Positions 19,816 through 21,374 of a stretch of DNA of 42,174 nt are shown here, in pieces (position 1 is the first letter of the stretch; each line of letters begins with the position of its first letter). The notes beneath the pieces are model-generated. The model worked only from the letters and a program-made list of their open reading frames with translations, was not told the DNA's origin and did not search any database. The stretch is from Candidatus Sulfotelmatobacter sp. (GTDB lineage Bacteria; Acidobacteriota; Terriglobia; Terriglobales; Acidobacteriaceae): the NCBI GenBank assembly GCA_025928375.1, contig JAICJP010000004.1, positions 1 to 42,174 of the forward strand, written 5' to 3'. The translations under genes were made by a program, and so were the position numbers.

Positions 19816-19964
19816 GCGTAGTCAAACGAGCGCAGGAGAGCAATTTAGGAGGCTCAAGAGGTTGCCCTTTCGAGGTTGAACATTCCGGTTCCGCCGCACT
19901 CTTGCAGAGCGGAATCGCGCCACTCTGTGGGACAATCAAAGCATCTAAGTATTCAGGATTTCCT

Positions 19965-20804
19965 ATGAAACCACATCGTGTCTCCGCGTTTTTCGCGCTG
20001 TTGTCGATCCTCTGGTTAACCGCCGCTCCCGCCTGGGGCGTCAATAAGGAGATGGTCCAGCTGCAGACTCAGGTCCAGCAACTGCAGGAGCAAATGACCG
20101 CTATGCAGCGCAGCTTCGACGAGCGCATGGGCGTGATGCGGAACCTGGTTGAGCAGGACACCGATGCGGTCAACAAAGTCGCCAATGCCCTGAACTCACT
20201 CCAGACCACGCTGCAAAAGCAGCAGTCCGAGGGCGGAAACAAAGTCGACCAGCTCTCTGGCCAGATCCAGGCGTTGAACGACACGATGGATGAAATTAAG
20301 GTCCGCCTGGCGAAGGTGACCAAGCAACTTGAGGATATGCAAGCATCGCAGCAGAGTATCCAGGCGCAACAGGCGCAGGCGCAAGCGCAGCAGCAGGCGC
20401 TCAAAGATGCTCCGCCACCCGACGTGCTATACAACAATGCTGTCCGCGATTACACCGGCGGCAAGAATGATCTCGCATCGCAGGAATTCACGGAGTACCT
20501 GAAGTTTTATCCCAATACCGATCTCGCCGGAAACTGCTACTTCTACCTGGGCGAAATTCAGTTTCGGGCAGCGAACTACCAGCAGGCCGTCCAGAGCTAC
20601 GACCAAGTCCTGCAGAATTTTCCCAGCGGGAACAAAGCTGCTTCGGCTCAGCTAAAAAAGGGATTCGCGCTAATCGAACTGGGTAAGCAGGATGACGGCG
20701 TCGCCGAATTGCGGCATGTGGTTCAGCGCTACCCGCATTCGCCCGAGGCGCTGCAGGCGCGCGAGAGAATGCGCAAACTTGGAGTCTCGAGCACCAGAGG
20801 CTAG
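19965..20804 (+). CDS. cpoB: Tol-associated cell division coordinator CpoB (YbgF)
   Basis: CpoB is a periplasmic protein linking Tol-Pal with peptidoglycan synthesis at the septum. From the ATG at 19965 (AGGA six bases ahead) it is 279 residues with a signal peptide (basic MKPHR, then SAFFALLSILWL, ending near PAWG). A long coiled coil rich in Gln spans about residues 30-145. The C-terminal tetratricopeptide repeats (YNNAVRDYTGGKNDLASQEF, CYFYLGEIQFRAANYQQAVQ, KGFALIELGKQDDGVAELRHVV) are the YbgF type. The coiled coil is longer than in E. coli. The frame is open 21 codons further up without a signal peptide. The stop overlaps that of the opposite-strand small gene. Confidence 0.92.
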   Translation: MKPHRVSAFFALLSILWLTAAPAWGVNKEMVQLQTQVQQLQEQMTAMQRSFDERMGVMRNLVEQDTDAVNKVANALNSLQTTLQKQQSEGGNKVDQLSGQIQALNDTMDEIKVRLAKVTKQLEDMQASQQSIQAQQAQAQAQQQALKDAPPPDVLYNNAVRDYTGGKNDLASQEFTEYLKFYPNTDLAGNCYFYLGEIQFRAANYQQAVQSYDQVLQNFPSGNKAASAQLKKGFALIELGKQDDGVAELRHVVQRYPHSPEALQARERMRKLGVSSTRG

Positions 20805-20974
20805 ACGCTCGCATGGCGGCGCTTGGGAGTCTTGTGTCGCGTGGCCTTGTGGGCCTTGTGCTTGTGAACCTTGGGATGCTTCACGCTCGTGAGCGTCGCG
20901 TGTGAGGCATCTGCCAGCACGAGACCGCTAAGTGCAAAGGCAACCACCGCCAGCATCAAAACAAACCTTTTCAT
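20801..20974 (-). CDS. Small secreted His/Lys-rich basic peptide (57 aa)
   Basis: The reverse strand reads an ATG at 20974 with AGAGGG upstream, through 57 codons to a TAG at 20801-20803. The N-terminus is a clear signal peptide: MKRF, then the hydrophobic VLMLAVVAFALSGLVLA. The mature part of about 36 residues is extremely basic, with seven His and most of the eight Lys and four Arg in patterns such as KHPKVHKHKAHKATRHK. No domain is recognised. The composition resembles acid-shock (Asr-like) or metal/nucleic-acid-binding peptides, but that is only similarity of composition. It is convergent with cpoB, overlapping its stop, and divergent from the hydrophilin-like gene at 21111. Confidence 0.72.
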   Translation of the reverse strand: MKRFVLMLAVVAFALSGLVLADASHATLTSVKHPKVHKHKAHKATRHKTPKRRHASV

Positions 20975-21061
20975 ATACCCTCTTTCACGGGGAAGCTACT
21001 TCGGAAAATACTATTCTATTTAAGAACACCAAGGCATAGACTGTCTTTCGAGTCGGGTCAC

Positions 21062-21090
21062 TTGAATCATATTTAAGGCTCCAAGATTAT
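21062..21090 (+). promoter_or_regulatory. Candidate promoter for the small hydrophilin-like gene
   Basis: TTGAAT and GATTAT are separated by 17 bases in a locally AT-rich stretch (about 21000-21095) between two divergent small genes, 20 bases ahead of the ATG. Confidence 0.4.
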
Positions 21091-21110
21091 TATTGGCGAG
21101 AGGTGCTCTC

Positions 21111-21311
21111 ATGAATCGTAAAGACCTCGATCAGGATATGGGGAAGGGTGCCACGGAAAGGGAAGATCACGAGACTCCCGGAAACGCCGGTCTGCAGGGC
21201 CAGTTAGGCCATCGCGACCAGGACCCCATGGTGAAGGGAAGAGATACGGACTTTCCCGAGCCAGGGGAGAACCCCGAACATACCGGAGAGCCCGAGCGCA
21301 AGAGCGCGTAA
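21111..21311 (+). CDS. Small hydrophilin-like acidic protein (66 aa)
   Basis: From the ATG at 21111, with GAGAGG seven bases ahead, the product has 66 residues and almost no hydrophobic residues. It holds nine Gly, sixteen Asp/Glu and nine Lys/Arg, giving net charge about -7, in patterns such as DQDMGKGATEREDHETPG and PEPGENPEHTGEPE. It is predicted disordered and cytoplasmic, as for hydrophilins and desiccation- or osmotic-stress proteins; that is inferred from composition alone, since no domain is recognised. A clear hairpin terminator follows. Its codon use is ordinary for the region. Confidence 0.65.
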   Translation: MNRKDLDQDMGKGATEREDHETPGNAGLQGQLGHRDQDPMVKGRDTDFPEPGENPEHTGEPERKSA

Positions 21312-21349
21312 CCCTCAACCATCACAACGCGTAATCGGCAACCATCACA

Positions 21350-21374
21350 AAGGGCCTCCTAACCGGAGGCCCTT
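21350..21374. terminator. Bidirectional terminator hairpin
   Basis: AAGGGCCTCC and GGAGGCCCTT are perfect 10-base arms around TAACC, between the stops of the hydrophilin-like gene (plus) and korB (minus). T-rich sequence on the plus side (CTTCTTCATT) supports termination; on the minus side the pyrimidine tail is weaker. Confidence 0.75.

Follow-up and report, generated by a model that had tools for sequence, protein, structure and literature searches.

Two short genes on opposite strands lie between cpoB and korB in the window, the whole stretch of 42,174 nucleotides analysed here, and they raise the question of whether their products act together and in what. A preliminary description had presented the first as a signal peptide with a basic, His-rich tail and the second as a disordered, acidic, Gly-rich protein. 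Both were said to have good ribosome-binding sites, to share an AT-rich gap of 136 bases and to be opposite in charge, and an acid/desiccation-stress pair or a charge-complementary complex had been proposed. Acidobacteria abound in acid soils, and a name is lacking for many of their small proteins. The two genes are called PEP and HYD in the following. The locus comprised these features:

20801..20974, minus strand: PEP, ORF of 57 aa with ATG start; exported-type His/Lys/Arg-rich peptide; dN/dS below 1
20975..21110, no strand: divergent intergenic region of 136 nt, A+T-rich, with a short core conserved across the genus
21013..21018, minus strand: possible -10 element of PEP (TAGAAT), weaker than the HYD element
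21037..21042, plus strand: possible -10 element of HYD (TAGACT); most relatives have a TAnnnT hexamer in this alignment column
21111..21311, plus strand: HYD, ORF of 66 aa with ATG start; acidic, Gly-rich, probably disordered, without signal sequence; conserved core at residues 31-59
21350..21374, plus strand: 10-bp hairpin, likely a terminator, between the convergent HYD and korB; -20 kcal/mol, z -4.4

The gene-level description was borne out. PEP is preceded by a tolB-like gene (PD40 repeats), a pal-like gene (OmpA domain) and cpoB (TPR), all on the plus strand, and HYD is followed by korB, korA and accA on the minus strand. The name cpoB for the TPR-protein gene follows the preliminary description. 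Both ORFs were present between cpoB and korB, with the translations MKRFVLMLAVVAFALSGLVLADASHATLTSVKHPKVHKHKAHKATRHKTPKRRHASV for PEP and MNRKDLDQDMGKGATEREDHETPGNAGLQGQLGHRDQDPMVKGRDTDFPEPGENPEHTGEPERKSA for HYD. Purine-rich ribosome-binding sites were read directly as GAGAGG, 7 nt 5' of the HYD ATG, and AAGAGGG, just 3 nt 5' of the PEP ATG. The 136-nt gap had 41.9% G+C compared to 58.8% in the window. Computed charges at pH 7 were +9.4 for mature PEP (from D22), rising to +15.5 at pH 5, and -7.2 for HYD. The TAG stops of PEP and the convergent cpoB overlap by two bases (CTAG at 20801-20804), and 99 nt separate HYD from the convergent korB. The HYD frame has an additional TTG start upstream at 21093. 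The cpoB ORF (19902-20804) was listed from a TTG; by inspection, translation more likely begins at an ATG 63 nt into the frame, which precedes a signal-like stretch. No known RNA family element reached its gathering score in the window.

Both PEP and HYD are coding genes under purifying selection. The preliminary description had named a dN/dS near 1 as counter-evidence; in four close pairs, the ratio was 0.35, 0.47, 0.17 and 0.53 for PEP and 0.24, 0.09, 0.09 and 0.07 for HYD. Fisher tests on rounded counts gave P = 0.0018, 3e-5, 1e-9 and 6e-13 for HYD, significant in all four pairs. The values for PEP were P = 0.017, 0.069, 4e-6 and 0.049; one pair missed significance and another barely reached it.

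HYD is lineage-restricted, and its core is conserved. A single-sequence search matched 71 of 200 genomes of the order, including all 15 listed for the genus; the 129 genomes without a match included many of its own family, f1, and the same was found with a profile. The HYD profile matched 40 of 45 genus genomes and all 20 that were good (at least 90% complete and at most 5% contaminated). In samples of the class and the phylum, 36 of 399 and 12 of 396 genomes matched, every one within f1, and many f1 genomes had no match. HYD was usually present as a single copy. Genome contigs contributed 31 HYD loci, all titled acidobacterial, with eight from Candidatus Sulfotelmatobacter and one from a peat-soil MAG. 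Among 30 sequences, 17 positions were invariant and 14 of them fell within residues 31-59; these sequences had been retrieved with exact HYD peptide patterns, which biases the set towards conserved members. A wider set of 24 sequences held 12 invariant positions. The core was recognisable across the family as Q-x-x-H-R, D-F-P-E-P-G and E-H-S/T. Of 95 distinct loci (97 unique profile hits minus two secondary ones of low score), all 95 carried the Q-x-x-H-R type motif, 92 had EH[ST] and 73 the exact DFPEPG. Credible Pfam or NCBIfam families were absent among 24 members, and PDB relatives were absent at E up to 1. HYD is thus a well-bounded family without a name in the libraries searched. The conserved core argues for a partner. 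With this core, its usual single copy and its presence in all good genus genomes, HYD is a ready target.

The composition of HYD resembled that of hydrophilins and LEA-like small disordered proteins, in line with the disordered, acidic, Gly-rich protein first described. An AlphaFold model showed no fold (pLDDT 61.7, pTM 0.18), at low confidence and from a shallow alignment of 30 sequences, and HYD is probably disordered. Its mean hydrophilicity was 0.89, and none of the 95 HYD proteins exceeded the strict limit of 1. HYD is therefore not formally a hydrophilin under the strict limit. Hydrophilins are defined by Gly > 6% and GRAVY < -1 in PMC4190154, whose own set of hydrophilins spans a mean hydrophilicity of -0.3 to 1. 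HYD (Gly 13.6%, GRAVY -1.75) lay within both limits of this definition, as did 86 of the 95 proteins in total. It differed from hydrophilins and LEA-like proteins in the mean hydrophilicity, in the conserved sequence core and in the lack of any LEA profile match in Pfam among 24 members at E up to 1.

PEP starts with MKR, a hydrophobic stretch and an A-x-A type cleavage region, followed by a basic tail with seven His. The signal peptide was judged by eye, by a simple rule-based scan and from orthologues, and it agrees with the first description. PEP is probably exported by Sec and cleaved. The acid shock protein Asr likewise begins with a signal peptide, continued by a Lys/His-rich basic tail. 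PEP shares both with Asr of E. coli (PF06392), but is shorter and adjoins a cytosolic-looking, hydrophilin-like gene. None of 120 order genomes passed the PF06392 cut-off, which the E. coli control passed; four weak matches were found, none at the PEP locus, and no Pfam Asr match occurred among 21 PEP members. PEP was accordingly not assigned to the Asr family. A literature search, limited to one library, set terms and part of the results, found no literature on either protein. We infer that the locus is a lineage-specific version of known protein types, with PEP as an Asr-like design without detectable Asr homology.

PEP was far more patchy than HYD. A single-sequence search found it in 10 of 200 order genomes, and five of these matches, the window's own included, adjoined HYD. 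A profile of 21 peptides matched 47 of 150 order genomes at E 0.01; in 36 of the 47 the best E was above 1e-4, and many weak matches covered the N-terminal part only. Within the genus, 21 of 45 genomes matched at 0.001 and 19 below 1e-8, and a strong match was present in 10 of the 20 good genomes. Comparison of coordinates placed all 19 matches below 1e-8 next to HYD on the opposite strand. Eleven of these 19 peptides were also rows of the profile, leaving eight independent ones, all linked to HYD. The remaining two genus matches (G174 and G559) were weak, partial and located elsewhere. PEP is thus a patchy, faster-evolving gene whose strong genus profile hits all adjoin HYD. In G171 (L047), the rule-based scan gave a GTG-start PEP candidate that the PEP profile did not list.

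The divergent order suggested by the preliminary description was accordingly conserved in relatives. Conservation held for HYD, within the genus and part of the order, and was patchy for PEP, found in 19 of 45 genus genomes. A divergent ORF with signal peptide and His-rich or basic tail lay within 330 nt of HYD in 26 of the 95 loci, compared to 0.7 expected by chance (27 rule-based hits in 1,198,412 control strand-bases; Poisson P ~1e-31). Among the 26 are three loci (L067, L167 and L071) whose basic protein is longer or of another kind. HYD frequently occurred without PEP, with 40 versus 19 of 45 genus genomes and 20 versus 10 of the 20 good ones. In L171, L017, L020, L022, L053, L060 and others, HYD followed cpoB at about 30-155 nt with no PEP. 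Upstream of HYD in L010, a PEP-like frame was apparently shifted within the basic tail, by gene decay or assembly error. In L071 and L131, the place of PEP on the opposite strand, some 155 nt upstream of HYD, was occupied by another small basic protein of exported type that contains two or three Cys.

The wider neighbourhood was partly retained. A cpoB gene lay within 1000 nt upstream of HYD in 56 of the 95 loci, a convergent korB within 400 nt downstream in 32, and both in 17; several loci were short, and absent neighbours may fall outside. Of the 26 PEP loci, 22 had cpoB within 1000 nt (exceptions L071, L116, L167 and L056), and inherited synteny alone can keep PEP and HYD neighbours. A gene for a small 2Fe-2S (Fer2_4) protein was near HYD in at least 24 loci, a lower bound obtained with one 60-aa query, and was upstream on the opposite strand in 23. 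Since this gene is divergent to HYD in other lineages, the slot is not reserved for PEP. Six loci held both genes, with PEP between the 2Fe-2S gene and HYD. The motif GRFCWNE(D/E)CQYCRV marked the Fer2_4 neighbour, for example in L161 (about 163-475 nt upstream of HYD, opposite strand), L131, L071, L068, L117, L128 and others.

A CpoB tree was built from 37 of 39 loci, those with a CpoB of at least 150 aa, and 33 of the 45 genus genomes were represented. The PEP labels were assigned manually, using the rule-based scan and the profile results. They required at least four changes on the tree (3-5 in bootstraps; starred branches force just one), and none of 500 shuffles was as low. A supported subclade of 19 genus rows (98/94), including that of the window, was PEP throughout.

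These results bear on the proposed charge-complementary complex. By inspection, PEP has a signal-type N-terminus and HYD has none, so different compartments are expected. The co-occurrence of an obligate pair failed with the many genus genomes that hold HYD alone. The expected separation and the frequent occurrence of HYD alone make a PEP-HYD complex unlikely. That the two genes share a role in acid or desiccation stress is plausible.

The preferred reading, at a probability of roughly 0.4, is that of two separate disordered stress-type proteins, with PEP as a periplasmic polycation similar to Asr and HYD as a cytosolic protein similar to hydrophilins. Both would be expressed from the compact divergent intergenic region of one acidobacterial lineage. 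PEP would be exported by Sec and its signal removed, leaving the tail in the periplasm. Asr is described in PMC10746267 as a periplasmic, intrinsically disordered chaperone. The His-rich tail of PEP would gain charge as the pH drops, as computed above, and might then bind anionic envelope polymers and unfolding proteins, as Asr of E. coli does. HYD would remain cytosolic as a hydrophilin-like protectant, its core probably docking to some conserved partner. PEP outside and HYD inside would form two arms of one envelope-stress response, with no mutual complex. As an exported His/Lys polycation, PEP would add a further example of the Asr-like design. Several observations speak against this reading: the order genomes without HYD, many of its own family among them, the Asr cut-off missed by PEP and the strict hydrophilicity limit missed by HYD. 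Proteins that act by composition only do not usually keep a conserved motif. The consensus promoter scan was empty and the automatic -10 search inconsistent. Inherited synteny alone can explain the neighbours, and the 2Fe-2S gene is divergent to HYD in other lineages.

A stronger form, in which the divergent promoter region drives a two-compartment module of a pH-titrated periplasmic polycationic chaperone or envelope shield and a cytosolic acidic, disordered, partner-docking protein, is doubtful. If true, the module would help one lineage of soil bacteria to survive acid and drought, and no counterpart of it would have a name. An unusual mechanism is not evident so far for PEP or HYD; HYD is a clean unnamed family, and PEP has an Asr-like design.

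The clustering of invariant HYD positions in residues 31-59 would also suit a small docking or regulatory protein that binds a cytosolic partner, perhaps the 2-oxoacid:ferredoxin oxidoreductase encoded next to it or the small 2Fe-2S protein, with PEP as an unrelated neighbour. The Fer2_4 gene near HYD and the convergent korB downstream, at the frequencies given above, are consistent with such a role. However, just 44 of the 95 loci, many of which are short, showed korB at all, and 24 had the 2Fe-2S gene. The window's own genome held no convincing 2Fe-2S relative (best E 0.8; assembly 84% complete), and the retrieval by exact peptide patterns favoured conserved sequences. This role for HYD is rather unlikely.

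PEP might instead be a periplasmic His-rich peptide that binds Ni, Zn or Cu and buffers or delivers the metal, rather than an acid-shock polycation. The peptides carried 3-11 His after residue 20, with no Cys there in 24 of 26. Weak matches to BRANT (NF047414), His-rich by name, were found for 3 of 21 PEP members (best E 0.00085). The curated BRANT cut-off was passed by none of 120 genomes, the weak matches listed were not at the PEP locus, and PEP was rejected as a BRANT member. Arg replaced His in some orthologues (L055 has 16 Arg and 5 His), which keeps the charge but not metal binding, and none of six examined neighbour genes was a metal transporter. Metal binding as the role of PEP is unlikely.

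A secreted cationic antimicrobial or signalling peptide would fit the short, strongly cationic, exported-type and fast-evolving PEP, and is very improbable. A match to the PhrK pheromone had E 0.0002 but only 21.4 bits compared to a cut-off of 35; it spanned residues 1-31, mainly the signal peptide, and the assignment was rejected. The six examined neighbour genes included no exporter or immunity-type gene. Defence and phage genes were likewise discarded, with no PADLOC hit and only weak N-terminal matches in PHROGs. Chance ORFs or annotation noise, suggested by the short length of both genes and the one PEP pair that misses significance, were rejected as extremely improbable in view of the conservation, selection and linkage of both genes.

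For the expression from the divergent region that the reading of two stress-type proteins assumes, a short core was conserved among 23 aligned intergenic rows (19 distinct), most of which had a TAnnnT hexamer 5' of HYD. The hexamer was TAGACT in the window and TAAACT or TAAAGT elsewhere, with TG before it in some rows. Towards PEP, the opposite strand carried an element of the form TATAAA or TAGAAT. No sigma-70 site emerged from a consensus scan. In 15 of 19 rows, automatic -10 pairing settled on the aligned HYD hexamer; in the window it chose others, and the PEP partners and spacings varied. As the automatic search chose other hexamers and spacings, the -10 elements are regarded only as possible. 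A fixed spacing of the two, regular-looking in the alignment, was discarded given the differing hexamers and spacings. The hairpin 3' of HYD has a short T-run and was not listed by the terminator scan; a terminator is nevertheless likely. In the closest relative, L041 (before 4390), the intergenic region was 75 instead of 136 nt, 61 nt shorter, and the HYD leader was lost. The HYD ATG lay 7 nt after TAAACT, as for a leaderless start, and the HYD mRNA of L041 may be leaderless.
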